Origin: Gemmatimonadota bacterium
Lineage (GTDB): Bacteria; Gemmatimonadota; Gemmatimonadetes; Longimicrobiales; Gaopeijiaceae
Direction of reading: 5' to 3'
NCBI GenBank assembly: GCA_029262115.1
Contig: JAJCZZ010000086.1
Coordinates: 1 to 54,894 of the forward strand
DNA: 54,894 nucleotides
Shown: positions 34,634 to 54,527 of the stretch, in pieces
Layout: each line of letters begins with the position of its first letter
Position numbering within the stretch: position 1 is the first letter of the stretch
Made by a program: the position numbers and the translations under genes
Notes under the pieces: generated by a model
Told to the model about the DNA's origin: nothing
What the model saw: only the letters and a program-made list of their open reading frames with translations
Database searches by the model: none

Positions 34634-34879
34634 ATGCCAAAGAAACGCTTGAATATCACTATCGACGCCGATGTGGTTGAACGCGCCCGTCGGTACACCC
34701 GTCGCCACGACACCAGCATTTCCGGGCTCGTAGGCGAGTTCCTCGCTCACCTACCGGATGGTGATGGGTCTGGAGCCGAGGATCTCTCGCCCACTGTAAA
34801 ACGCCTGCTCGGCGTGGCAAGGGGAGGTCCGGACCGAGAGGACTACCATCGCCATCTTCTCGAGAAGTACGGCGTGTGA
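34634..34879 (+). CDS. Ribbon-helix-helix-like antitoxin (VapB-type, DUF6364-like)
   Basis: The 81-residue protein begins with KKRLNITIDADVVERARRYTRRHDTSISGLVGEFL. This is the beta strand plus two helices of a MetJ/Arc-type DNA-binding fold seen in DUF6364 antitoxins. The C-terminal part should fold onto the toxin. A strong GGGGGAG ribosome site precedes the ATG. Its stop overlaps the GTG start of the PIN-domain toxin by 4 bases (GTGA), the normal antitoxin-first arrangement. It probably represses the operon through the inverted repeat upstream. Confidence 0.85.
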   Translation: MPKKRLNITIDADVVERARRYTRRHDTSISGLVGEFLAHLPDGDGSGAEDLSPTVKRLLGVARGGPDREDYHRHLLEKYGV

Positions 34880-35283
34880 AGCTCCTCCTCGACATCAACG
34901 TCCTCCTTGATGTCTTGCTCCAACGGGACCCGTGGGCGGAACCGGCTGCCACCCTTCTGTCAAAGGTCGAGCGAGGCGAGGCCGCCGGATTCGTGCCAGG
35001 GCACACGATCACCACCATCCACTATGTCGTCTCCCGGGGCAGGGATCGTCAGTCAGCCGCCGAGGCCGTCACGGATCTTCTTCGCTTCCTGGAGGTTGTC
35101 CCCATTGAGAAGGCCGACTTCCACCAAGCTTTGATTCTCCCAACAGATGATTTCGAGGACGCCGTTCAAGCGGCCGCCGCCTTGAAGGTTGGGGCAGACT
35201 ACATCGTGACACGGGACGAGAAAGGGTTCGGCGGGCTCTCAATTCCATCCGTGAACTCCGGCGAAGTCCTCTCTCTCTTCTGA
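34876..35283 (+). CDS. PIN-domain ribonuclease toxin (VapC-type)
   Basis: The 135-residue protein starts MKLLLDINVLLDVLL, giving the first PIN aspartate (D6). The later acidic residues lie in DDFEDAVQAAAALKVGADYIVTRDEKGF. These form the metal-dependent active site of PIN ribonucleases, which cut tRNA or other RNAs when released from the antitoxin. The start is GTG at 34876, overlapping the antitoxin stop. The module is intact, while the DNA directly after it is a graveyard of broken toxin and transposase genes. Confidence 0.9.
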   Translation: MKLLLDINVLLDVLLQRDPWAEPAATLLSKVERGEAAGFVPGHTITTIHYVVSRGRDRQSAAEAVTDLLRFLEVVPIEKADFHQALILPTDDFEDAVQAAAALKVGADYIVTRDEKGFGGLSIPSVNSGEVLSLF

Positions 35284-36523: not shown

Positions 36524-38341
36524 GGAAATCCAACCGGGGTCGGTCCCGGTGGAACCGAACGTGACGCGGTCCGCGCGTGCGGCGCAAGCGAGTTCGTCGT
36601 GTCGCGGGCCGGGGGTCTTGAGGGGGTGCTCGACGCGAGTCGCGGCGGATGCGGGTCTGCGTCGGCGGGATGCGGGGTTGGGCAGCACGAGCGTATGCGG
36701 CGGCCCGCCCACGGAGGGTTGAGCGTTTCAGGCGCTCCAGGTTCCGTCGTCCCCGGGCAGGCTCTGATCGAAAGGGTCGGGTCCGGGGGTCGCGTGGTTC
36801 CCTTGGCTCCCGTGATCCCAGAGGGAGGGCGGGTCGACCGCGAGCAACTCGGTCTGCGGCGGGCCCCGTGCCGGACTGATCGGGGGCGGGTGCTCCGGGA
36901 TACGCAGGTGTCGCAGGATGGGCCTGACGACGACGGGGTCGGTGAGGAAGGCGAGGATGCGCATCTCACCGTGGCAGGCGGGGCAACGGAGGGGGTGCAC
37001 CTCGTCGATCCGCGCGAGCAGCTGTGCCCACCGACGTCGGGGGCCGCGGTCGGGTGCGTGGCCGCAGGTGGGGCCGGCGTCGTCGGTGGCCCCGTCGGGT
37101 GGGTCGCTCCCAAGGTCCTCACGCCCGTAGCGGGTGGCCTCTCTGCGCCACGTAACGTTAGGGCCGAAGACGCCGTGGTAGCGGTGCCGGTGGACGCGGG
37201 GCGGTGGAATCAGGCGCGCGAGCCGATACGAGCAGCTCAAGGGGGCTGAGGCGGACGCGGGTGCGTCCGTCGTGTGCGGGGCGGGGTAGTTCGTAGAGCA
37301 GACGGGCATCCGAGGAACTCAGCGGTACCCGCGTCGACTCGGGCCGAAGACGATGCAGCGCCAAGGGTGGGCGGGCACAGTACCGTAGCAGGCGCTCGAG
37401 ACCGGCGCGGTCGTGGGCGGCGATCCGCACCGAGCCGTCGAGGCTGAAGCCCCCGGTGCCGCGCCACGTGAGCATGTCCTCGGCGGCGTCCTCGGGGAGC
37501 AGGCCGCGACGGACGTAGAGCTGCAGGATGCGACGCTGCAGGATCGGCGTCAGAGCCCGCGCACGCTCGGCGTCCATGTCTGCGGAGGGTCGGAATCGCA
37601 GCGGGGCGTCTGCGTCTTTAAGGCACCGTGCGAACAGCCCATCGGTGACGGCGAGATGGAAGTGTGGGTGCGGATTCAGGGCCGAGCCGAAACGGTGCAG
37701 GAAGGAGACTGCGCCGAGCCGGGCATCCTTCGGAAGGGGACCCCGCACCGATCCCCGGAGTTCACGTCGAATTGCCCGAAGCAGGATGCGCAGCATCGCC
37801 CCCGCCAGCTCCGAGTCCCGCATCAGTTGCGGCCGTAGACGCTTGGGGACGGACAGCACCCACTGCCGCATCGGTACGCCAGGCACGACGGTGTCGCTCA
37901 GGTGCGCGGCGACCTCGGCCATGCGTCGGTTGGTGCAGGAAGGGCAGACGCAGCGTCCCTTGCAGCTGAAGGCCACGAGCCGCTCTTGGCGGCAGTCGGT
38001 GCAGCGTGCCCGAGCGAACCCGAACGCGAGGATCCCGCAGGTGAGGTAGCGGCGAAACTCGTGCTCGGTCCAGACCGGGAGGTAGGTCATCTCGTCCGCC
38101 TCGGCCATTGCGAGGTAGGTCTCCAGGTGATGCTGCACGACCTGGTAGAGCGGCGTGTCCTCCGACCGCCGACGCCGATACACGGGGGATGGCGTGAATC
38201 CGGATTGGTCGGGACGGCCGGGCGGAGCCAGTCCAGCAGGACGAGTCCAGCGCTGGGTCGGTCTGGAGCGAGGTCGGGACGGCATCCGAGACCGTCACAG
38301 TGCGGTTCGGGCGCTGGAATCGGTATTCGGGACAACCCACC
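36524..38341 (-). mobile_element. IS91-family insertion sequence, copy 1 (defective)
   Basis: Boundaries come from comparison with copy 2: both share GGAAATCCAACCGGGGT at the 3' end (36524-36540 here) and lose similarity after GGGACAAC near 38341. The length is about 1.8 kb. It carries one transposase gene with a frameshift. Its right edge interrupts an ADOP permease gene, and its left edge lies 20 bp from an attC-like site. IS91 elements move by rolling-circle transposition and make no target duplication. Confidence 0.8.
36728..38285 (-). pseudogene. IS91 transposase, one-base frameshift
   Basis: The first frame (38285 to about 37230) encodes the N-terminal zinc-binding domain (CTDCRQERLVAFSCKGRCVC, then PSCTNRR). 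It also encodes the HUH relaxase motif in NPHPHFHLAVTDGLF. Relative to copy 2 there is one extra base near 37230, after LELL. The continuation RLARLIPPPRVHRHRYHGVF, with the C-terminal zinc motif PLRCPACHGEMRILAFLTD, is in another frame that stops at 36728. The catalytic tyrosine region lies in the frameshifted part, so the protein should be inactive. Confidence 0.85.
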
Positions 38342-39747
38342 GCGCGCCGGCATCGGGAAGGCAGTCGGTGATCACCACCGGTGGTTTCGATGGTGACGGA
38401 GTAGATCGTCCATGCCCTCGATCTCCCATGTCGAGAAGTAGGGTGGTGAGGAGGAGCCGGGCGAGGGCCAGACCCAGGAGCCCCCCAACCAGGGTGACCG
38501 CGATACCTTCGACGACGAAGGGACGCCGGAACGCGCTGCCAGCGCCCAAGACGATGCGCACGGTGGACTCGGTCCGTCGTCCCGCGGCTCGAGCCCGGAA
38601 TAGATTCGCCACGTTGGTGACGGCGATGAGGACCACGCACAGAGCCACCCCCCACAGCATCCAGAGCGAGCGACCGACCCCGTCGAGCACCGCCTCCTTC
38701 AGCGGCGTCACTACGGTGGCCATCTGCATGCTCTCGATCTCCCCGGCCGTGATTTCCCCGGGGAACGCGGCGGGAAAGCTCCCGACGGCCCCGCGGAGGG
38801 CGTCGTCGAGGGTGCCGCCACCTCCCTCCGCCCGTCGGCCTACCGAGCGGTAGGTGAAGCCGCCGAAGGGAGCCCCCGACGCGTCGAAGGCGAGGGGTGT
38901 GATGAGATCCGCCTCGCCGAAGGGGAGTCGGAAGCCGGCCTGGAGCACCCCGACCACCCTGTGGGACCGCCCATCGACCGTGAGGGTCCGGCCGACGACC
39001 TCACCACCCCCGAACGCGGTCCCCCAGAGGTCGTGGGTCAAGAGCGCGACCGGCTCCGCTCCCGGTCGCGCGTCTGACTCGTTCAGGGTCCGGCCCACGG
39101 CAGGCACGGCTCCCAGGATCTGCAGGACGGATGGGGTCGACTGGGCGGCCGGGATCCTTCGGCGCCAGTCGAGGGCGGACAGGTCCACGTGGCCGGGTTG
39201 ATAGAGTCCGAGCGCGTCGAGCTCGTCGATCTCGCGGTCGAAGTGGGCGAAGGTGCCGAGGGACAGGCCGAACGCCTCGATGCCCATCCCGGGCGCCGTG
39301 AAGGTGAGCTCGACGAGACGGTCCGCCTCGGGATAAGGGAGGGCCCGAAGGGCGATCCGCTCCAGGAGGGTGAAGAGGACGAGCTGCGTCGACAGGCCCA
39401 CGGCCACGGTGCTGGCGACGGTGAGCGTGAAGAGCGGTGATCGGGCCGACGGCTCGGAGCGACGTGCGCATGTCGCTCCACCCGCCGCGGGCCCAGGAGC
39501 CGGACCCGCGCCGCCGAGCCCAGCGGGCCACGGTGTCCCGCCACGCCGCCCCGATGGCGCCGCACAGTCCGATGCACGCCCGTGTCCAGAAGGCCACGCG
39601 CCGCAGACTCGAGGGCCTCTCTCCGAGCTCCTCCCGATGCCTCCGGCAGGTCTCCAGGATCTCCCGGGCGTACTCTTCTTCGATGGGGCCCGGGAGCCCG
39701 CGGAGAAGCGTCCGGAAGACGCCGAGGCCGAATCGGTCCAGGCTCAT
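38342..39747 (-). pseudogene. ADOP-type ABC permease, frameshifted and truncated by IS91
   Basis: The N-terminal cytoplasmic part (MSLDRFGLGVFRTLLRGLPG) and the start of the first membrane region are in one frame. Near 39430-39450 the coding sense moves to a second frame (SARSPLFTLTVASTVAVGLS). That frame continues through the MacB periplasmic core (VGRTLTVDGRSHRVVGVL) and part of the first FtsX block (ALCVVLIAVTNVANLFRARA). Similarity ends at the IS91 boundary near 38341, leaving about half of the usual 800-900 residues. GGAGG lies 10 bases before the ATG at 39747. A near-perfect palindrome lies upstream at 39832. Confidence 0.85.
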
Positions 39748-40027: not shown

Positions 40028-40387
40028 GTGCCCAAGGACTCCACCACAGGCCTGACCAGAGTAGAACTCAGGATCCTGCTCACCCTTCTTGATGGGCCGC
40101 TGCACGGCCATGCCATCAAGACCGAAGTGCGACGCCGATCCGACGGAGAGGTGGAGCTCGGGCCGGGCACGCTGTACGGGGCCATTGATCGCCTGGAGCG
40201 CCGGGGATACCTCACGCCCGACGAGCCTCCCCGGCCTCCCCAAACGGGACGAGAGCGGAGGAGGCGCTACGTCGCCATCACACCTCGAGGCGTGGATGCC
40301 GCGCTCGCCGAGGTCGAAAGCGTCGATCGCCTGCTAAGCTTCGCTCGGGCCAAGATGCGAGCCGCCGATTTGAAAGGCACCCCCTGA
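40028..40387 (+). CDS. PadR-family transcriptional regulator
   Basis: The 119-residue protein is a winged-helix PadR regulator. Its motifs are LLTLLDGPLHGHAIKTEV, the DNA-contacting LGPGTLYGAIDRLERRGYL, and the wing with RRRRYVAITPRG. It is short, lacking the long C-terminal coiled domain, as is typical for PadR proteins next to ADOP permeases. The start is GTG at 40028 with GGAGG 7 bases upstream. Its stop shares one base with the permease ATG (TGATG), so the regulator and the permease are translationally coupled. Confidence 0.93.
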   Translation: MPKDSTTGLTRVELRILLTLLDGPLHGHAIKTEVRRRSDGEVELGPGTLYGAIDRLERRGYLTPDEPPRPPQTGRERRRRYVAITPRGVDAALAEVESVDRLLSFARAKMRAADLKGTP

Positions 40388-43038
40388 TGGGTCTGGAGCG
40401 GAAAAGAAGCTGGAGTCGGATCCTATTCCATGGCGTGCTACGACTGTATCCGCGGCGGCTGAGAACGATGGCCGCCGAGGAGATGGCGGAGGAGTTCGAG
40501 GAGGATGTCGAGCGGGCGTCCCGGACCGGTTGGCTGGCCCTGGCACGCCTCGTCCTGGTCCATTTACCGATGGACATCGTGCGAGCCCACCGGCTGGTCG
40601 ATGGGCCACCTGCCCGTCGGGGGAGCCTGGCGTCCGCGATGGACGGGAGGCGCCAGGATGTCCTCATGGCTCTTCGGTCCCTGTGGCGGAACCCTGGCTT
40701 CGGGATCCTCACGGCCGGGACCCTTGCCCTGGGAGTCGGCGCCGTCACCAGCGTGTATGCGGTGGTGGACACGGTCTGGCTCGAGGAGCTGCCCTTTCCC
40801 CAGGCCGATCGCCTCGTAGCGCTGTGGAGTGTGGACCGCGCCACGGGCGTCCGAGATCAGTTTTCGATCCCCGAGTACATGGACTACGCGGATCGAGCCG
40901 CCACCCTCGGAGCCGTGGGAGCCTACGACGTCAGTCGCGAGACGCACACCGGGGAGGGTCGTCCACCGCGCCGACTCCGGGCCGCGTCGCTGTCGCACTC
41001 GCTCGTAGGGCTCCTGGGGATCGAGCCCTCCCTCGGCCGTGTCTTCCGGTTGGAGGAGGATGTGCGGGGCGGGCCCCGGGTCGTGCTGGTCAGCGACGCT
41101 TTCTGGCGTAACGAGCTCGGGGCCGACTCCATCCTGGGAGACGTGCTGCTCCTCGGCGGCCGCACTCACCGCGTGATCGGCGTCCTGCCGCCGGGCTTCG
41201 CATTCCCCGACGACGACATCGATGTGTGGCGGCCACTTCGTGAGGATCGCGAGGCGTTCTCCCGGCGGGGTCGATACGTGTCGATGGTCGCCCGCATGTC
41301 GGACGGGGCCGACCTGAGCACGGTCCGGAGTGAGCTCCGGCGGATCGCGGGAGAGCTCGAGTCCGACATGCCCGAGTACAACTCCGGGATGACCGCGACC
41401 GCCGAGCCCCTCCGTACGACCCTCGTGGGGGAGGCCGGTCCGGTCCTGCTGCTCCTGGCCGGTGGTGTGGTATCACTCCTGATCCTGGCGTCGGCCAACG
41501 TCAGCAATCTCCTGCTGGCTCGCACCCTCCGCCGACAGGGCGAGATTTCGGTCCGGGCCGCGATCGGTGCCGGTCGAGATCGGCTCCTGACTCAGCTCCT
41601 CACGGAGAATCTGGTGCTCTTCGCTCTGGGTGGCGCCCTGGGGGGCGCTCTGGCGGCCGGGGCGGTGGAGCTGATCCAACGAGCCGAGTGGCTGACCGCA
41701 TTCCGCATCTCGAACCTCGCGTTCGACGTACGGGTCTTCGCCTCGAGCCTCGGGGTGGCGGGTGTCGCCGGACTGACCTTCGGCCTCCTGCCGGCCTGGC
41801 GTGCGGTTCAGCGGGACCCGGGGCTTGGGTTGACTTCCCGCCGAGGACCGGGACGCGCCGGACGCCTCTCGGACTCGCTCGTGGTGGGGCAGACGGCTCT
41901 GGCAACCCTCCTCCTCATCGGCAGCGCACTCCTGACCCGCACGGTGGTCGAGCTCGAGGGGACCGATCCCGGATTCGCCTACGGAAATCTGGTGAAAGTG
42001 GACATCTCATTGCCGTCGGTGAAGTATCCCGTCTCGATGCGGACCTTCCCCGAGTGGACCGAGGTCCACGACTTCTACGATCGGCTCGACCGCCGGCTTC
42101 GCGCAGTCCCGGGCCTCGCCGGCTTCGCAATCGGTTCAAGCCATCCTATGGAGAGCCGCTTCGGACGCATGCGCTTCAGCCTGGAGAGCGGGGTCGAGGA
42201 CGGGGGCGAGGAGCAGGCGAACATCCGTACTGTCTCTCCCGACTACCTCGATGTCGTCGGCATCGGAGTCGTCGGCGGCCGATCCCTCGAGAGAACGGAC
42301 CGTCTCGGGAGCGCGCCGGTCGCGCTCGTCAATCAGGCGTTTCAGGCGGCGTTCCTTGGGCCCGGGTCGCCGCTGGGACGGATGGTGACGATCCTCGGTC
42401 GTGAGGCGGAGATCGTCGGCGTCGTCGAGGACATCCGCACCGACGGCATCCAGGTGCCCCCGACGCCGACGATCTACCGCCCGATCTCCCAGTCTCCCCG
42501 CGAGCTCGTGTCCATCCTGGTTCGGACCGAGGCGGCGGATCCGCGGGGGGTCTTCCCGGAGCTGCGTGAGGCCATCTGGGATGTCGAGCCGGACCTCCCC
42601 CTCGACGGCCTGGAGACGCTTGCCGCGGTCCGGAGTCGACAGTTGCAGGGCCCCCGGCTCCGGGCCGCTGCGGTGACACTCTTCGCGCTGATCGCCGGAC
42701 TCCTTGCGGCGGTGGGAACCTCGGCCGTCTTGGCGTTCTCCGTGGAACGACAGCGCCGGGAGATCGGCGTCCGGATGTCTCTGGGGGCTTCCCGGAGTCT
42801 CGTCGTCCGCTCCGTCCTACTCCGCGCCGCACTCCTCGCCGGTGCCGGCGCCCTACTCGGACTCGTGCCTGCGCTTCTCGCGGCGCGCCTAGCCGAGCGG
42901 TTCCTCTACGGAGTTCCGGCCTCGGATCTTCCGAGCTTCCTGGTCGGACCGTTCCTGCTTCTGGCGATCGCCCTCCTCGCCGCCATGATCCCGGCGATCC
43001 GCGCGGCCCGCATCCCCCCGGCCGATGTCCTCGGCTGA
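40387..43038 (+). CDS. ADOP-type ABC transporter permease (MacB/FtsX)
   Basis: The 883-residue protein has the ADOP layout. A cytoplasmic N-terminal segment of about 90 residues (YPRRLRTMAAEEMAEEFEED) comes first, then a MacB-like periplasmic core after the first helix (NPGFGILTAGTLALGVGAV). An FtsX block follows (VVSLLILASANVSNLLLART, IGAGRDRLLTQLLTENL), then a second periplasmic core, and a second FtsX block ending RAARIPPADVLG. There is no ATPase domain, and no nucleotide-binding subunit lies next to it. ADOP permeases are abundant in Acidobacteria and Gemmatimonadota and are thought to move peptides, lipids or toxic compounds; the substrate is unknown. Confidence 0.92.
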   Translation: MGLERKRSWSRILFHGVLRLYPRRLRTMAAEEMAEEFEEDVERASRTGWLALARLVLVHLPMDIVRAHRLVDGPPARRGSLASAMDGRRQDVLMALRSLWRNPGFGILTAGTLALGVGAVTSVYAVVDTVWLEELPFPQADRLVALWSVDRATGVRDQFSIPEYMDYADRAATLGAVGAYDVSRETHTGEGRPPRRLRAASLSHSLVGLLGIEPSLGRVFRLEEDVRGGPRVVLVSDAFWRNELGADSILGDVLLLGGRTHRVIGVLPPGFAFPDDDIDVWRPLREDREAFSRRGRYVSMVARMSDGADLSTVRSELRRIAGELESDMPEYNSGMTATAEPLRTTLVGEAGPVLLLLAGGVVSLLILASANVSNLLLARTLRRQGEISVRAAIGAGRDRLLTQLLTENLVLFALGGALGGALAAGAVELIQRAEWLTAFRISNLAFDVRVFASSLGVAGVAGLTFGLLPAWRAVQRDPGLGLTSRRGPGRAGRLSDSLVVGQTALATLLLIGSALLTRTVVELEGTDPGFAYGNLVKVDISLPSVKYPVSMRTFPEWTEVHDFYDRLDRRLRAVPGLAGFAIGSSHPMESRFGRMRFSLESGVEDGGEEQANIRTVSPDYLDVVGIGVVGGRSLERTDRLGSAPVALVNQAFQAAFLGPGSPLGRMVTILGREAEIVGVVEDIRTDGIQVPPTPTIYRPISQSPRELVSILVRTEAADPRGVFPELREAIWDVEPDLPLDGLETLAAVRSRQLQGPRLRAAAVTLFALIAGLLAAVGTSAVLAFSVERQRREIGVRMSLGASRSLVVRSVLLRAALLAGAGALLGLVPALLAARLAERFLYGVPASDLPSFLVGPFLLLAIALLAAMIPAIRAARIPPADVLG

Positions 43039-43495
43039 CCCTCGCGGAGGCGGGCTTCGGGCTCTCCTCCTGGCGCTCGTCGCGGTAGGCGCCGTCGGTC
43101 TGCTGGTCGAGCTTCTTCTGCTGGAGCATTGGCTCGTGCGCCCTCAACTGATTCCTCTGGCGACCCTCATCTGCATCCTCTTCGCGACCGTCTTGGTCTG
43201 GAAGCGACCGAACCCGAGGCTGCTTCGAGTCTTCCGGGGCGTCATGATCTGGACGGTCCTGGCCGGGTCGGCCGGCATCGGCTTCCACCTCCGTGACAAC
43301 CTGGCGTTCGAGCGAGAGATCGCTCAGGAGGCGTCACCCGTATCGGTGCTGGCCGAGGCGGTGCGGGGGGCAACGCCGCTTCTGGCGCCGGGCAGTCTCC
43401 TGCACCTGGGCCTCGTCGGTCTCGCCTTCACGTACAAGCATCCGGGTCTTCGACGACACCTTAGCCATTCAACACGCAACAAGGAGCATCCATGA
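43025..43495 (+). CDS. Small four-helix membrane protein, unknown function
   Basis: The 156-residue protein has four hydrophobic stretches, at about residues 12-33 (ALLLALVAVGAVGLLVELLL), 42-60, 70-88 and 118-137. No family is recognised. It starts inside the end of the permease gene (14-base overlap), and its stop overlaps the next gene by 4 bases (ATGA), so it belongs firmly to this operon. It may be an accessory subunit of the permease or a separate inner-membrane enzyme; there are no catalytic motifs to choose between these. Confidence 0.7.
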   Translation: MSSADPRGGGLRALLLALVAVGAVGLLVELLLLEHWLVRPQLIPLATLICILFATVLVWKRPNPRLLRVFRGVMIWTVLAGSAGIGFHLRDNLAFEREIAQEASPVSVLAEAVRGATPLLAPGSLLHLGLVGLAFTYKHPGLRRHLSHSTRNKEHP

Positions 43496-44022
43496 AGGTT
43501 CGACATCTGCTGCCCGTTCTCGCCATCCTCGTCGGTTCGTCCTGCGGCGACGCCGAGCCGAGCGATCAAGCCCGCGCGGAGGGGATTCCGGCCGCCGAGC
43601 CCGAGGACGCCGTGCCCTCGGAGCGGGACCTGACGGCCGTCCCCGCCGAGGCCGTCCTACTCGATCCCACCGAAGCGGATCGCTCCGAGCTCCTGGCTGT
43701 GGATGGCCTGGACGAGGCGAGCGTCGAGGCTCTGATCGAGGGGCGACCCTACGACAACATGCTGGAAGTCGACTCGGTTCTGGCCCAACTACTGAACCCG
43801 CCGGGGAGGGAGCGGATCTACGCCGCGGTATGGAAGCCCCTCGATCTCAATCGGGCGTCGGGAGAGGAGATCCTACTGATCCCGGGTGTCGGCCAGCGGA
43901 TGGAGCACGAGTTCGAGGAGTATCGGCCGTACCGGGCCATGGCCGAGTTCCACCGGGAGATCGGCAAGTATGTTGACGACGCCGAAGTGAGGCGACTGGC
44001 CCGGTACGTGGAGCTGAGGTGA
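43492..44022 (+). CDS. Lipoprotein with two helix-hairpin-helix domains (ComEA-like)
   Basis: The 176-residue protein has a lipoprotein signal ending VGSSC (Cys18). An acidic linker is followed by two helix-hairpin-helix units. The first is LLAVDGLDEASVEALIEGRP. The second is LDLNRASGEEILLIPGVGQR, the latter very like ComEA and other HhH proteins that bind DNA without sequence specificity. A lipid-anchored HhH protein in a permease operon is unusual; ComEA itself is a membrane-anchored DNA receptor. The start overlaps the previous gene's stop (ATGA), and its own stop overlaps the next start (GTGA). Confidence 0.75.
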   Translation: MKVRHLLPVLAILVGSSCGDAEPSDQARAEGIPAAEPEDAVPSERDLTAVPAEAVLLDPTEADRSELLAVDGLDEASVEALIEGRPYDNMLEVDSVLAQLLNPPGRERIYAAVWKPLDLNRASGEEILLIPGVGQRMEHEFEEYRPYRAMAEFHREIGKYVDDAEVRRLARYVELR

Positions 44023-45110
44023 GGAAAAGAAGTCGAGGGAAGACGATGACCACTGAGAGGAGGATGACGATGATGACGATGATGACGAAGACGTTCGGGC
44101 GAATGGCGACGCTGGCCCGGGCCGGGATGGCGCTCGCGGTGGTCGCGGGCCTCGGTTCTGCCCCCGTCCAGGCCCAGACTCTGATCGAGACGGAGCTCAG
44201 GCAACGGATCGACGCCGAAGGAGTCGAGGCGGGGATCTCTTGGTACCAGGAGCAGCAGGCCGATGACGAGACAGGAGCGTGGATCGGCGACGGCCCCGAT
44301 GCCTTGCTCGTCGTAGGCGACGAGCTTCGCGAAGAGGGTCGGGGACGCGACGTATTGGCACTGGGCCACATGGCCATCGAGCTCCACCCCGACGACGTGC
44401 GGCTACATCGACTCCACGGCGACGGCCACCTCCTGGTGGAGGAGACCCGTGAGGCTGTCCAGGCGTACCAGCGGGCCCTCGAGATCGACGAAGCCCACCA
44501 GCCGGCTCAGGACCGGTTGGCGGAGCTGTGGGGCGCGCCGGCTCCTCGGCCCCTGGGCGACCTGGTGGCCGAGGCGAATGATGAGGGGGGCTTTCTCGCC
44601 GCCCGCGACCGGTTCTTCGCGTTGAAGCGGGGCTTCGACCAGACCGGGGCGTACGATTTCTCGCCGTCGGGCGTCCTGTTCGAGGTGCGTCGACTCCTGG
44701 AAGAAGATCGGATGAACGATGCACTCCTCCTGGCGGAGGTCAATCGAGCGGTCAATCGTTATACCAGCACGACGTATCTCATGGCGGGTGAGGTGGGCCT
44801 GCTGGGGCCGGATCCCCTCTCCACGTCGTTCTCCTTCCGGGGGGCTCGGACCGTTCACGAGACCCTCGAGGAGCGAGGGAGAAGTCTACAGGAGTGGATG
44901 GCGGAGCTGCATGAACGCCAGCCAGCCGCGACGGAAGAGTCGTTGCGTGTGGAGATGGACCATGCCCGGGCCCACGTCGTGCGGGGTGAGGACGAACTCG
45001 CTCGAGACATCTACCGCCGGATCCTCGAGATTGACCCTACGCACCGGGAAGCCCGGGAAGGTCTCCGACTGGTGGGAGGCTCACCTCCCGACGTTGCCGG
45101 TGGCCGATAG
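44019..45110 (+). CDS. Exported TPR-repeat protein
   Basis: The 363-residue frame begins at GTG 44019. The true start may be one of several internal ATGs in the repetitive ATGACGATGATGACG stretch (44046-44093), which precedes a signal peptide ending VQAQ. The mature part has tetratricopeptide-like repeats: around residues 90-160 (ALGHMAIELHPDDVRLHRLHG, QAYQRALEIDEAHQPAQDRL) and again near the C-terminus (ARDIYRRILEIDPTHREAREG). TPR proteins scaffold complexes. As the last gene of the cluster it may link the permease and the HhH lipoprotein in the periplasm. 45111-45401 holds only the regulatory region of the next operon. Confidence 0.75.
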   Translation: MRKRSRGKTMTTERRMTMMTMMTKTFGRMATLARAGMALAVVAGLGSAPVQAQTLIETELRQRIDAEGVEAGISWYQEQQADDETGAWIGDGPDALLVVGDELREEGRGRDVLALGHMAIELHPDDVRLHRLHGDGHLLVEETREAVQAYQRALEIDEAHQPAQDRLAELWGAPAPRPLGDLVAEANDEGGFLAARDRFFALKRGFDQTGAYDFSPSGVLFEVRRLLEEDRMNDALLLAEVNRAVNRYTSTTYLMAGEVGLLGPDPLSTSFSFRGARTVHETLEERGRSLQEWMAELHERQPAATEESLRVEMDHARAHVVRGEDELARDIYRRILEIDPTHREAREGLRLVGGSPPDVAGGR

Positions 45111-45401: not shown

Positions 45402-45758
45402 ATGGCCGAGGATGAGAATGCGCAGGGGAATAGCCCGCTGACGCCGGCGGTCTTCCACACGCTCTTGGCCCTGGGGAGAGAGCCCATGCACGGGTACGCC
45501 ATCATGCGAGCCGCGGCGGAGGATTCCCAAGGAGCGGTCCGACTGGGCCCTGGCACTGTCTATGGGTCCTTGGACCGCATGGAGGATCTCGGGTTGGTGG
45601 AGGAACTCCCCGGGGAGGCGGCACGCCGTGGGGAAGACCGGCGCCGGAAGTACTACAGGATCACCGGTCGGGGCCGCGTCGCGTTGGAGCGCGAGGCGGG
45701 TCGGTTGACCCGTTTGGCCGAACTGGTGCGAGCCCAACGAATCGCGCCCGCCGGCTGA
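45402..45758 (+). CDS. PadR-family transcriptional regulator
   Basis: The 118-residue protein carries the PadR winged helix: FHTLLALGREPMHGYAIMRA, LGPGTVYGSLDRMEDLGLVEEL and the wing RRRKYYRITGRG. ATG at 45402, with GAGG upstream, is preferred over an in-frame start at 45330 whose extra residues show no family similarity. It lies 7 bases before the second ADOP permease, in the same operon. The strong inverted repeat at 45295-45328 is the likely autoregulatory operator. Confidence 0.92.
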   Translation: MAEDENAQGNSPLTPAVFHTLLALGREPMHGYAIMRAAAEDSQGAVRLGPGTVYGSLDRMEDLGLVEELPGEAARRGEDRRRKYYRITGRGRVALEREAGRLTRLAELVRAQRIAPAG

Positions 45759-45765
45759 CGGGGAC

Positions 45766-48507
45766 ATGCGTCTCCTCGTCTGGCTCAGTGGCGTCTTCGT
45801 GGGCGTTCTCCTGCGGGTCTACCCCGCACGATTCCGCCGGAGGTTCGATGGGGCGGTGAGGGCGGCGTTCGAGGACGATGTGGACAGGGCGGCAGGTCGG
45901 GGAGCAGCGGCTGTGCTTGGAGCGTGGGTGAGGATGCTCGGAGACGCGCTGCGCTCGGCGCCGGCTCAGTGGAACCGCGTGGGGCGGGACCACCGGACTT
46001 CGGGAGGGGGGATGAGGACGATGAGAATCGACGACGTGACGAGAGAGCTGGTCCACGCGGCACGGTCGCTGTGGAGCCGCCCACGATTTCTGACTGCGGC
46101 GGTCCTGACCCTCGGCCTTGGGATTGGGGCGGCAGCGGCAGTGTTCAGTGTGGTGAACGGAGTGCTCCTCCAGGGTCTTCCCTACGAGGACCCTGATCGC
46201 CTCGTCATGGTTTGGAATCGGCTGGAAGGCGAAGGGGAGAGGGTCCAGAACTCTGCACCCTCCTTCCTCGACTATCAGGCCGGCACCGAAGGCTTCGAAG
46301 GCTTCGCCGCGATCTCAACCGTGACTTCGAATCTCACGGGCGATGGGTATCCGGCCCTGGTCACGACCGCGGCGGTAACGCCGAACCTCTTCTCGATGCT
46401 GGGCGTCGAGGCCGCCCTGGGACGCGTTCTGCTGGAAGAGGATGCTGTGGCCACCGTGGACGGCGGCCAGGCCCCGGCCACTGCGTCGGGGCGGCTCGTT
46501 CTGAGCCACGACCTCTGGCAGTCCCGCTACGGGGGAAGCGGTGACGTGGTGGGCCGCACGGTGGGGCTCAACGGCCAGCCGGTGGAGATCGTCGGGGTCC
46601 TTCCTCCTGGTTTCCGGATCCACCTTCCGCCGGAAACAGGCGTCCCGCCCCGAGTGGACGGCTTCGTCGTGATGAACACCAGTCGGTTCGCCCGGCTCAC
46701 ACGGCGGGTTCACTGGGTCACCGTCCTGGCGAGACTCCAGCCCGGTGTCACCCTGGACCGGGCGCAGGATGAGATGAGCCGCCTGGCCGCCGAGGTCCGC
46801 TCCACCGACGAGTACCATGCCCGAGCGGGAGTCGAATTCGAGGTGGTGCCCCTGGAGGAGGACCTGGTCAGGGATGCCCGCTCAGTACTCTTCGCCTTCG
46901 CCGTGGCCGTCGGACTGGTCCTGTTGGTCGGCTGCTCCAACGTCGCGAATCTGGTGATCCTGCGGACCGCCGAGCGGGAGGGCGAACTGGCGGTGCGGAC
47001 GGCACTGGGCTCGGGCCGCGCCCGCCTCCTCTTGTCCCTCCTGATGGAGAGCGCGGTCCTGGGAGCGCTTGGATGCGGCCTGGGAATCCTGTTGGCACAC
47101 GGCGGGCTGGAAGTCCTTTCCACACTGTCAGCCGCCGACCTTCCGCGTATAGAAGAGGCAACCATGGACGGGCGTGTCCTCGGGTTTTCCCTCCTCCTTT
47201 CCATCGTCGCGGCCCTCGGCGTCGCCGCCGTCGCAACGCTCCAGTTCTCCTCGCCGGATCCGGCGGCGGCCCTCCAGAGGTCCAGGCGCGGGCGCGGTGG
47301 GGGCTCGTCTCGTGTCCGGTCCATCCTGGTGGTCGGACAGATCGCGTTTTCACTTGTCCTCCTCCTCGGCGCCAGCCTGACGCTCCGGACCGTGCGGGAG
47401 CTGCAAGCTGTGGACCCGGGCTTCGAGGCCGGCCCAGTGGAGACGTTCTCGGTGAGCCTTCCGTCGACGACCTACCAGCCGGATCGGGATGAGACGCAGC
47501 GGGCGTTCGCGGAGATCTCGGACCAACTCCAGATGATGCCTCGGGTGAGGCGTGTGTCCGCGGTCTCCGACTTCCCCCTTACCCCCGGCGACGAGTCCGG
47601 AGGATGGGCATTGGATGAGGGGGACGATGAGGCGTGGGACCTGAACCGCGCCTCCTATCGAGCAGTGCTGCCAGGATACCTGGAGATCATGGGGATCGAC
47701 CTGCTGGCAGGGCGGACGATCGAAGAGCAGGACGGGGAGTATGGCCGACCCGTGGCCGTGGTGGACGAGGCTCTGGCCGCCAGGGCTTGGGGCTCCGGCG
47801 ACGCCATTGGGCGAACACTCGTGATCCAGCGCTTCCGGGAGGACCAGCGCGGGTTCGAGCGAGTGCCGGCGGAGGTCGTGGGGATGGTGAGTCACGTACG
47901 CCAGGAGACCCTCGACGCGGAGGGCCTGCCAGGGGTCTATGTCCACCTTGTGCAGCGGTCGCGCCCAACCATGACCTTCGCCGTGGAGGCGGCCGGCGGA
48001 ACCGGAGGCCTGTCCCCGGACGAGGCCCGGACGATCGTGGCGGCCGTCGAGAGCGAAGCGGCGGTCCACGACTGGCGCCCCCTCAGATCCTACCTCGACG
48101 AGGCCCTGGCCCCGAGCCGCCTCGTCCTGTCCCTGACGACCGTATTCGCGGTTCTGGCCCTCGCCCTGGCGGTGGTCGGGCTCTTCGGAGTTGTCTCCTT
48201 CGCCGTCACGGCCCGTACCAGCGAGATCGGGCTCCGCATGGCGCTCGGTGCCCGTCGGGAAGATGTCGTGGCGCTCGTGGTAGGAGGCGGGGCACGCCTC
48301 GCGTTCCTCGGTGTGCTCGTTGGGGGAGGGATGGCCCTCGTCCTGGCCCGCGTGGTGCGCACTGAGCTCTATGGTGTGCCCTCCATGGATCTGGGGACCC
48401 TGGCAGCCGCAACGGGGGTCCTCCTGGCCTCAGCCCTGGCCGCCAGCCTCCTCCCCGCGCTGCGAGCCACCCGGATCCGTCCCCGCGACGCCATCAGCGG
48501 AGAGTAG
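45766..48507 (+). CDS. ADOP-type ABC transporter permease (MacB/FtsX)
   Basis: The 913-residue protein has the same ADOP plan as the permease at 40387. It has a short N-terminal cytoplasmic region (LLRVYPARFRRRFDGAVRAA), a first helix (AAVLTLGLGIGAAAAVFSVV), MacB cores (VVGRTVGLNGQPVEIVGVL) and two FtsX blocks. The first block is LVLLVGCSNVANLVILRTAE; the second is VVGLFGVVSFAVTARTSEIG. The protein ends ATRIRPRDAISGE. The two proteins are only loosely similar, so they are not a recent duplication. No ATPase partner is adjacent. The substrate is unknown; regulation by the preceding PadR gene is likely. Confidence 0.92.
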   Translation: MRLLVWLSGVFVGVLLRVYPARFRRRFDGAVRAAFEDDVDRAAGRGAAAVLGAWVRMLGDALRSAPAQWNRVGRDHRTSGGGMRTMRIDDVTRELVHAARSLWSRPRFLTAAVLTLGLGIGAAAAVFSVVNGVLLQGLPYEDPDRLVMVWNRLEGEGERVQNSAPSFLDYQAGTEGFEGFAAISTVTSNLTGDGYPALVTTAAVTPNLFSMLGVEAALGRVLLEEDAVATVDGGQAPATASGRLVLSHDLWQSRYGGSGDVVGRTVGLNGQPVEIVGVLPPGFRIHLPPETGVPPRVDGFVVMNTSRFARLTRRVHWVTVLARLQPGVTLDRAQDEMSRLAAEVRSTDEYHARAGVEFEVVPLEEDLVRDARSVLFAFAVAVGLVLLVGCSNVANLVILRTAEREGELAVRTALGSGRARLLLSLLMESAVLGALGCGLGILLAHGGLEVLSTLSAADLPRIEEATMDGRVLGFSLLLSIVAALGVAAVATLQFSSPDPAAALQRSRRGRGGGSSRVRSILVVGQIAFSLVLLLGASLTLRTVRELQAVDPGFEAGPVETFSVSLPSTTYQPDRDETQRAFAEISDQLQMMPRVRRVSAVSDFPLTPGDESGGWALDEGDDEAWDLNRASYRAVLPGYLEIMGIDLLAGRTIEEQDGEYGRPVAVVDEALAARAWGSGDAIGRTLVIQRFREDQRGFERVPAEVVGMVSHVRQETLDAEGLPGVYVHLVQRSRPTMTFAVEAAGGTGGLSPDEARTIVAAVESEAAVHDWRPLRSYLDEALAPSRLVLSLTTVFAVLALALAVVGLFGVVSFAVTARTSEIGLRMALGARREDVVALVVGGGARLAFLGVLVGGGMALVLARVVRTELYGVPSMDLGTLAAATGVLLASALAASLLPALRATRIRPRDAISGE

Positions 48508-52799: not shown

Positions 52800-53858
52800 T
52801 CAGGCTCGCTCTGCGACCTCGTCCCCAATCCATCCCCGCTCTTCGAGGACTTCCTGTGCCAGCAAGATCTGCCGTTTCGTAAACTGCTCCTTACGGCTGC
52901 CCCAGTCGTACGTACGTCGGATCACCTCGTCCGCCGCGCGAGCGTCCTCGTGCGTCATGACCCAGTGGACAGTGGCCAGCAGCTCCAAGCCGAACGGTGA
53001 TTCGAATCCCTCGACGAGTCGTGCCACACGCTCGAACCGCTCGCTCGTCCCCGGGCGCTCATCGAGAAGTGCGCGCGCGTCCTTGATTGCTCCGGGTACA
53101 AGCTCGACCTCCTTGTCGGGCTCGTCGCCGCCCGCCCCGTAACCCGTTACGTAGTACCCCTCGATCGCGCTCAGTACGTGGCGGAGGTTCTCCGCGTAAG
53201 GACCGAAGGGTCCCTTCGACAGCCGCAGTCGAAGAGGCTCTCCAGCCTCCTGCATGAAGTACATCAGCTTGTGCACCTCGAGGAGTGTGACCGAAGGATC
53301 GAGTAGGCCATCCAAGTACCGCCGTATGAGCCCAACGAGGGCGGCTCGACCGGGGGTCATCTTCGGCACCTTCTTGCTCCGACGCCCACGGCCCTGCGCC
53401 GGGACGCCGCTAGGTTCGAACACGATGACACGCACATCGCCGATGCCTCCGAGGCGCTCATCGATCCGCTTGCGGACTTGGGCCCAATCCAAGCCGCCGA
53501 GGCCCGCACCCAGCGGAGGCACGGCAATGGACTGGATCTCGCGGCTGTGAATCTCTTTAGCCAGCGCCTCGAGACCAGCCTCGATGTCTTCGATCCGGGA
53601 CTTGCCGCGCCAGTGGCGTTTGGTCGGAAAGTTGATGATGTACCGCGGGCCCGTCAGCTCGCGTGTCTCGAAGACGAACATCCTGCCCGGCTGCACCTTC
53701 TCCCTCCGACACGCTGCCGCGTAGGCCTTAAAGTTCTCGGGCCACACCTTCTTGAACTGGAGCGCGATGCCGCGGCCCATGACGCCGACGCAGTTCACCG
53801 TGTTGACCAGCGCCTCGGCTTCCTCGGCGAGGATATCGCCCGTCTTGTACTCGATCAT
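52800..53858 (-). CDS. darG: DarG antitoxin (macrodomain ADP-ribosyl hydrolase)
   Basis: The 352-residue protein has an N-terminal macrodomain (about 1-155) with VNTVNCVGVMGRGIALQFKK and PPLGAGLGGLDW, the ADP-ribose-binding loops. The C-terminal domain (LLEVHKLMYFMQEAGEPLRL, GPFGPYAENLRHVLSAIEGY) resembles the DarG region that binds and blocks DarT. DarG removes ADP-ribose from thymidine in DNA and neutralises the toxin. ATG at 53858 gives the standard MIEYKTGDIL start. It follows darT by 17 bases. It appears complete, unlike its toxin. Confidence 0.92.
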   Translation of the reverse strand: MIEYKTGDILAEEAEALVNTVNCVGVMGRGIALQFKKVWPENFKAYAAACRREKVQPGRMFVFETRELTGPRYIINFPTKRHWRGKSRIEDIEAGLEALAKEIHSREIQSIAVPPLGAGLGGLDWAQVRKRIDERLGGIGDVRVIVFEPSGVPAQGRGRRSKKVPKMTPGRAALVGLIRRYLDGLLDPSVTLLEVHKLMYFMQEAGEPLRLRLSKGPFGPYAENLRHVLSAIEGYYVTGYGAGGDEPDKEVELVPGAIKDARALLDERPGTSERFERVARLVEGFESPFGLELLATVHWVMTHEDARAADEVIRRTYDWGSRKEQFTKRQILLAQEVLEERGWIGDEVAERA

Positions 53859-53875
53859 CGCAGCGCCTCCATTCG

Positions 53876-54527
53876 TCAGAAGTACCACTCCCGCCGCACT
53901 TCGACCGGGGGCCGATGGGACGCATTCGCGGTCATCTGGGCGGCTTGGGCCCTCACGGCCGGGGATGCCACACCGATCCGCTCGACGAGATCGAAAGGGA
54001 ACCGCTCATGGACTAGGAACTCCGCCTGCTTCCCTTCCCTCACGTCCGGCGTACTGAAGTCCGTCGCCTTGATCGCCTCCCAGTTCAGGTCTGCGAGCTC
54101 CTCCGCGCGAGCGCGGAACTCAGCGTAGTACGCCCCCGCATTCGAGAGCGAGAAGGCCCAAGGTGTGCCGTTCACGTCCGCCCAATCGATCACGGCCCTC
54201 AGGGTCGGCTTCAAGATGGACGATCGGCCCCTGCCCTCCGCGATATGCCAGCTCAGGATGATTGGCGCGATGAATCACGTACAGCATGATCGATCGCGCA
54301 CAGAAGTAGAAGGGCACGTAGTCCCCGACGGTCGTCTCGGGATGACAGGAGACGGTGATCTTCTCCATGCGACGTCGCTTAATGGTAGACATCCCGACGA
54401 CTTGGGTGGCGGCACCGCTCGCCAGGATCTGCCGGTCCGACAGCAACTCACCGCCTGCAAGGATTCCAGCGAGGTTCTCCACGTGGGTGATGTGGTAGAT
54501 CTTCGGCGTTGCTGGCGGATCGGTCAT
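53876..54527 (-). pseudogene. darT: DarT DNA ADP-ribosyltransferase toxin, single frameshift
   Basis: Two frames together make one DarT of about 216 residues. The N-terminal part is YHITHVENLAGILAGGELLS, VGDYVPFYFCARSIMLYVIH and QGPIVHLEAD. It then shifts by one base into LRAVIDWADVNGTPWAFSLS, with EGKQAEFLVHERFPFDLVER holding the catalytic glutamate. The joint is a CCC run (54202-54204 on the complement): removing one C restores LEADLRAVIDWAD. DarT modifies thymidine in single-stranded DNA and DarTG systems defend against phage. The frameshift may be genuine inactivation, phase variation in a short C run, or an assembly error. Confidence 0.85.

Follow-up and report, generated by a model that had tools for sequence, protein, structure and literature searches.

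The two adjoining genes at positions 43025-44022 (+) of the DNA stretch analysed here (54,894 nucleotides, in the following called the window) form a real unit, which is tightly coupled and conserved across several phyla. They code for a four-helix membrane protein (termed TM) and an exported helix-hairpin-helix protein (termed HhH), and the interest of the locus lies in this cassette rather than in the chain of five genes of which it is a part. The window joins three different histories: those of a PadR-ADOP operon, whose family is massively expanded, of an old TM-HhH cassette with an undescribed function that is probably related to redox, and of a lineage-specific TPR gene. For the conserved pair in combination with a redox role, we regard the case as evenly balanced.

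Gene Organization of the Locus

An ORF check of the window recovered all five genes of the original prediction at their assigned positions on the forward strand, and the family matches agree with the order and identities proposed there. The first gene (40028-40387) codes for a PadR-family regulator of 119 amino acids, which matches PF03551 with 45.8 bits (cut-off 27) and stays below the cut-off of the model TIGR03433 padR_acidobact (50.1 vs. 101.8 bits). It is followed by the gene for an ADOP-family duplicated MacB/FtsX permease of 883 amino acids (40387-43038), scoring 695.5 bits over residues 89-882 against TIGR03434 (cut-off 622.3). The conserved pair consists of the genes for TM (156 amino acids; 43025-43495) and HhH (176 amino acids with two HhH modules, exported and probably lipidated; 43492-44022), and the last gene (44019-45110) codes for an exported TPR protein (TPR_14, 33.7 bits, cut-off 23.5). 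The PadR, ADOP and TPR genes lie outside the conserved unit.

The claim that every junction overlaps is borne out for the first three of them, as seen from a TGATG at 40387, a 14-bp overlap at 43025-43038, and an ATGA at 43492. The GTGA at the junction of the HhH and TPR genes is real only if translation of the latter starts at GTG 44019, which would place some 36 residues ahead of its hydrophobic signal-peptide stretch. The ATG at 44070 is preceded by an AGGAGG 6 nt upstream and yields a normal signal peptide; judged by these features, it is the likelier start codon, and the overlap at the last junction is therefore probably wrong.

Some further features of the window surround these genes. 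Just upstream, a mobile-element scar is recorded by an IS91-family transposase gene (Zn_Tnp_IS91 plus Y2_Tnp) adjoining a shortened ADOP gene at 37158-39407 (-), and a second PadR-ADOP pair is located directly downstream of the TPR gene at 45402-48507 (+), the ADOP protein of which is 37% identical to the first one. A DUF6364-PIN pair at 34634-35283 (+) represents a probable type II toxin-antitoxin system, and a DarG-like macrodomain protein is encoded at 52800-54527 (-) together with a DarT-like ORF, which may be shortened or frameshifted, because its match covers only profile positions 1-95 of 201.

Conservation of the TM-HhH Pair

The neighbourhoods of about 120 HhH loci were read, leaving 111 distinct ones after removal of duplicates; partners were counted from profile hits in all frames, with heuristic gene calls. 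A TM gene adjoins the HhH gene in 74 of these 111 loci, and the two share their strand in every case; the locus counts are not independent, because many of them come from MAGs and related species. TM lies upstream in 68 of the 74 pairs. The gap has a median of 4 bp, with an overlap or a distance of at most 10 bp in 41 of 72 pairs, which makes the ATGA junction of the window a typical one for this family. The pairs occur in Gemmatimonadota, Acidobacteriota, Rhodothermota, Bacteroidota, and Myxococcota. Among 298 genomes of the phylum, HhH is present in 52 of the 57 that contain TM (Fisher p 2e-28, with kinship ignored). Relatives of HhH as such were found in 22 of 59 close genomes, in 88 of the 298 genomes of the phylum, and at 416 confirmed positions across GTDB genomes; the 80 best of these belong to Gemmatimonadota, Acidobacteriota, Rhodothermota, Bacteroidota, Myxococcota, Gammaproteobacteria, and KSB1. 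The suspicion that a double HhH protein made together with a four-helix protein is not a recognised combination has thus led to a conserved, undescribed pair. In the literature collection that was searched, no paper turned up on HhH proteins with ferric reductases or on PadR with ADOP, and the papers on flavinylation do not mention helix-hairpin-helix proteins.

The cassette usually stands alone or is joined downstream of varying genes. A 4-bp overlap of TM with its upstream neighbour is seen for many unrelated genes. Genes overlapped by TM code for multihaem cytochromes (L053, L055, L082, L085, L091, L171, L179), PQQ dehydrogenases (L069, L078, L080, L088), other proteins (L070, L172), a MacB permease in L124, and ADOP in the window. 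Since such upstream overlaps are a habit of the cassette, the overlap with the ADOP gene says little about a shared function. In the tree of TM sequences, which is based on few columns and contains many weak forks, the window TM groups with that of G001, a member of the same genus (SH-aLRT 99; 59% identity). The pair of this genus sister has a divergent gene upstream and neither ADOP nor TPR alongside, while the genes downstream, named by eye, resemble those for an ECF sigma factor with its regulator and for a receptor of the TonB type. Another copy of TM-HhH is located on contig C106 of the genome to which the window belongs; it faces the gene for a cytochrome c-beta-barrel fusion as well as one for a multihaem cytochrome. 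A PadR-ADOP pair is found about 1 kb beyond this copy on the opposite strand, with one gene in between, which is unsurprising because the ADOP genes are so many.

Genes Specific to the Window

The set of PadR and ADOP genes in this genome represents an extreme expansion, with 133 PadR matches, including the one in the window, and at least 67 ADOP genes above the cut-off, found on scoring 67 of 199 candidates. The sequences closest to the window ADOP are only 33-37% identical, in the own genome and in the sister genome alike, which leaves no ADOP orthologue through which a linkage could be passed on. An orthologue of the TPR protein is absent from 59 related genomes, where the best matches reach about 30 bits and cover short TPR stretches; by this sequence comparison, the gene is lineage-specific. 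An ADOP gene within 600 bp of HhH occurs in the window only, and none was found within this distance in the other 110 distinct loci, which essentially amounts to the absence of linkage in the relatives. Because of two MacB-type permeases, the window is not entirely alone in having a permease link: one adjoins the pair in L124 (a Rhodothermales bacterium), overlapping TM by 8 bp, and a MacB/FtsX permease gene lies behind HhH in L060.

The idea of one system made of five genes, whose order is kept neither across the 111 loci nor in the genus sister, is not upheld by these data. The association of PadR, ADOP, and TPR with the TM-HhH pair very probably is a local accident, the pair itself being what is conserved.

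Properties of HhH

HhH carries a signal peptide or a lipobox, as judged by motif. The proposed lipid anchor is plausible but not certain: the window protein has a GSSC lipobox with Gly at -3, the protein of the genus sister a canonical LAAC, and a loose lipobox is present in about 30 of 72 homologues, the remainder having ordinary signal peptides. The two HhH modules are seen in a structure model in which residues 53-176 reach a pLDDT of about 98, and homologues score well in HhH models; the Pfam HhH matches of the window protein itself remain below their cut-offs (18.7 vs. 24 and 18.5 vs. 27 bits), while the homologue in L054 scores 62.1 bits with HHH_3, well above the cut-off.

The nearest folds are those of ComEA (2duy and 8dss, Z 8.7 and 8.2), PsbU (Z 6.2-6.7), and GspK/XcpX. 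Neither the comEA model TIGR01259 (13.2 bits, cut-off 152.35) nor that of type II secretion protein K/GspK (PF03934; 12.9 bits, cut-off 24.2) recognises the protein as a member. The mature protein is strongly acidic with a charge of -19 and a pI of 4.36, compared to a family median of 4.62 among 71 homologues.

The second module contains the signature RMxHEFEEYRPY (residues 136-147; 43897-43932, +), where ComEA 2duy has LARRIVEGRPY. H139, E140, F141, E143, and Y144 of this signature are near-invariant whatever the membrane partner, and together with K159 they reach 100% in the partner classes with TM, PepSY_TM, and ferric reductase. The occurrence of the same signature with all partners suggests one common interface or site.

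Properties of TM

TM belongs to no Pfam or NCBIfam family. The structure model (pLDDT 90.8) contains helices at residues 6-32, 39-60, 64-99, 105-114, and 120-136, and fold searches returned only generic four-helix bundles and no solved relative. Over 42 sequences, G25, E29, L30, H35, Q41, P44, G84, H88, E98, G115, P118, A121, P122, and G132 are invariant. The two histidines, His35 after helix 1 (43127-43129, +) and His88 at the periplasmic end of helix 3 (43286-43288, +), are both located near the membrane edge; with the N-terminal Arg taken as inside, the model predicts them near the periplasmic face. No cofactor motif is present in either TM or HhH.

A relation to the membrane proteins that occur elsewhere beside HhH was not detectable: none of 14 TM members matches PepSY_TM (PF03929) or Ferric_reduct (PF01794) at E values up to 1, and TM shows no similarity to the profiles of the PepSY_TM and ferric-reductase partners. 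Several assignments were tried and rejected. Profile comparisons with ferric reductases, PepSY_TM, and DUF6644 proteins gave probabilities of at most 2% for TM being a divergent member of these. Its identification as an M50B peptidase relied on one weak match of a single member (E 0.0066; 16.6 vs. 26 bits), with the rest of the family lacking it, and a DsbB/VKOR-like thiol-quinone protein was suggested only by weak fold matches (6wvf, Foldseek E 3.6; DsbB 2zuq, Z 7.9) and is contradicted by the absence of any invariant cysteine from the 42 sequences.

Exchange of the Membrane Partner and Neighbouring Redox Genes

In the loci without TM, its place beside HhH is often taken by another membrane protein, which is PepSY_TM in 12 and a ferric-reductase/MsrQ-like protein in 10 of the 111 loci. 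Two of the three partner types never occur together in any of the 111 loci, and 15 loci contain none of them, several of these lying at contig ends. Both PepSY_TM and the MsrQ-like proteins are membrane cytochromes that carry haem b and share the core that binds it (PMC11334425), and PepSY_TM proteins are known as ferrisiderophore and possibly copper reductases (PMC13038864). In gammaproteobacterial HhH loci, the partner is a Ferric_reduct domain, either alone or fused to an FMN dehydrogenase. Such a fusion with an FMN-dependent dehydrogenase adjoins HhH in a Woeseia MAG (L140:3879-5627) and is a candidate for a single-chain carrier of electrons from the cytosol to the periplasm. In another gammaproteobacterial MAG (L105:4270-9282), the HhH and ferric-reductase genes are situated amid genes resembling, by eye, those for molybdenum-cofactor biosynthesis, a context hinting at a molybdoenzyme as acceptor.

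Redox proteins are also encoded next to some of the TM-HhH pairs. In Acidobacteriota, PQQ dehydrogenase genes overlap or adjoin TM. A cytochrome c domain fused to what is probably a beta-barrel of the outer membrane, and after it a pentahaem cytochrome, are encoded at L045:8713-11447 (C106:12497-13546 onward in the own genome) and likewise in L053, L055, L057, L059, L171, and L179. In its cytochrome half, the fusion resembles small c-type cytochromes, and the pentahaem protein shows a weak MtrC/MtrF-like match and no solved relative at E 0.01; by analogy to Cyc2, the two proteins may form an outer-membrane electron conduit. Of 27 sampled genomes containing both the fusion and HhH, 6 have them no more than 6 kb apart, compared to about 0.08 expected by chance. 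These cases represent five genera, including that with the C106 copy, and the same arrangement is seen in a sixth genus (G030). Any gene with a CxxCH motif is found within 4.5 kb in 23 of 95 HhH loci, and such genes make up 34 of 661 (5.1%) near HhH vs. 16 of 524 (3.1%) farther away (p 0.05). The general enrichment of cytochromes near HhH is therefore weak, and only the specific pair of cytochrome-barrel fusion and multihaem protein is convincing. The window itself contains no such CxxCH gene.

Proposed Function and Alternative Explanations

From the exchange with known cytochromes, we infer haem binding and electron transfer by the TM and HhH proteins, and a redox role of the pair appears to us roughly as probable as its opposite. 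TM would be a compact membrane electron carrier with a haem b or quinol site that involves His35 and His88 near the periplasmic face, while HhH would be its exported partner, docking on TM via the conserved RMxHEFEEYRPY surface and, in a PsbU-like manner, on a periplasmic redox acceptor or donor. This acceptor probably varies, as HhH is paired elsewhere with PepSY_TM, with ferric-reductase/MsrQ-like proteins, or with the barrel fusion and the pentahaem cytochrome. In the window, the cassette would have been joined behind one of the many PadR-ADOP operons, with the lineage-specific TPR gene following, and PadR may control the pair there because of co-transcription. Against a redox role, neither protein has a cofactor motif, TM resembles neither of the cytochrome partners in profile nor any solved structure as a relative, its histidines are at the membrane edge instead of mid-membrane as in PepSY_TM or MsrQ, and most of the pairs have no adjoining cytochrome gene. 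That TM itself holds haem is somewhat doubtful. The more far-reaching proposal that TM is an unrelated minimal transmembrane cytochrome or quinol conduit, repeatedly exchanged with PepSY_TM and MsrQ-like proteins, and that HhH is a general periplasmic partner linking any of them to interchangeable redox proteins, is put forward with still more reserve.

The strongest competitor of a redox role, tentative in itself and on the improbable side, is that HhH acts as a redox-neutral adaptor or assembly factor stabilising different small membrane proteins, with TM being structural and free of cofactors and the exchange of partners reflecting docking. The nearest folds of HhH include PsbU and GspK, which are protein-docking proteins, HhH contains no cofactor motif, and many TM-HhH pairs have no redox neighbour, all of which would fit an adaptor; yet known families of haem-b cytochromes account for two of the three partners that replace one another, and the invariant His, Glu, and Gln residues on the periplasmic side of TM exceed a purely structural need. 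A chance chain of overlapping unrelated genes, co-transcribed with a conserved pair of non-redox function, would agree with the highly variable neighbours of the pair, but does not explain why TM and two cytochrome families replace each other without ever occurring together, and is considered very improbable.

Two further readings were weighed, the second of which had been suggested originally for the locus. The five genes might be a real unit in this lineage, serving as a PadR-controlled envelope pump in which the ADOP permease cooperates with TM, the lipoprotein HhH, and the TPR protein. The three overlapping junctions, which imply coupled translation, and the MacB-type permeases in L124 and L060 speak for such a pump, which we still regard as unlikely: the gene order is absent from the other 110 of 111 loci, that of the genus sister included, the 4-bp overlap of TM with unrelated upstream genes is a cassette habit, ADOP and PadR genes are extremely abundant in the own genome, and the TPR protein is an orphan. 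The other reading, a ComEA-like handling of DNA or another polyanion in the envelope, draws on ComEA as the closest solved fold and on the PGVG hairpin kept in HhH. It is disfavoured to the point of being highly improbable by the acidity of the protein, its conserved HEFEEY in place of the LARRIVEG of ComEA, and the lack of any comEC gene noticed beside the HhH loci read; the acidic character and the comEA score far below the cut-off make DNA binding by HhH unlikely.

Helix-hairpin-helix folds are best known for binding nucleic acids. If the redox reading of the pair holds, HhH modules would be used instead for electron-transfer complexes, providing the docking in electron transfer within the periplasm, and the TM family would be directly testable for haem or quinone. 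The pair merits attention because HhH has more than 400 relatives in GTDB genomes and because its other half, which belongs to no family, is swapped for two established families of haem-b cytochromes. The locus also gives reason for caution, in that overlapping genes in ADOP-rich genomes should not be taken as one machine.

Relation to Known Systems

The two upstream genes of the window belong to the known ADOP-PadR systems (TIGR03434), whereas TM and HhH are outside of their usual neighbourhood. HhH shares with ComEA (TIGR01259; PDB 2duy, 8dss) the exported HhH_3-type modules, but differs from it in scoring far below the family cut-off, in its acidic nature, its tandem modules and its RMxHEFEEYRPY signature, and in being paired with a membrane protein other than ComEC. 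PsbU, the 12-kDa extrinsic protein of photosystem II, docks on a membrane redox complex and is, like HhH, an exported and cofactor-free HhH protein; there is no photosystem II here, however, and the sequence match of HhH reaches E values of only 0.14-0.8. The likeness of HhH to ComEA and PsbU in fold is real, but a fold does not show a function. As for TM, the PepSY_TM cytochromes (FoxB, CrpH) and the MsrQ-like/ferric-reductase proteins share its position beside HhH and the possession of conserved histidines (PMC11334425, PMC13038864), whereas TM differs from them in its four helices, its two edge histidines, and the lack of detectable homology. A precedent, by analogy, is provided by DUF4405 and FezC, the latter possibly a homodimer, which were small undescribed membrane proteins near redox genes and were later shown to bind haem b (PMC11334425).
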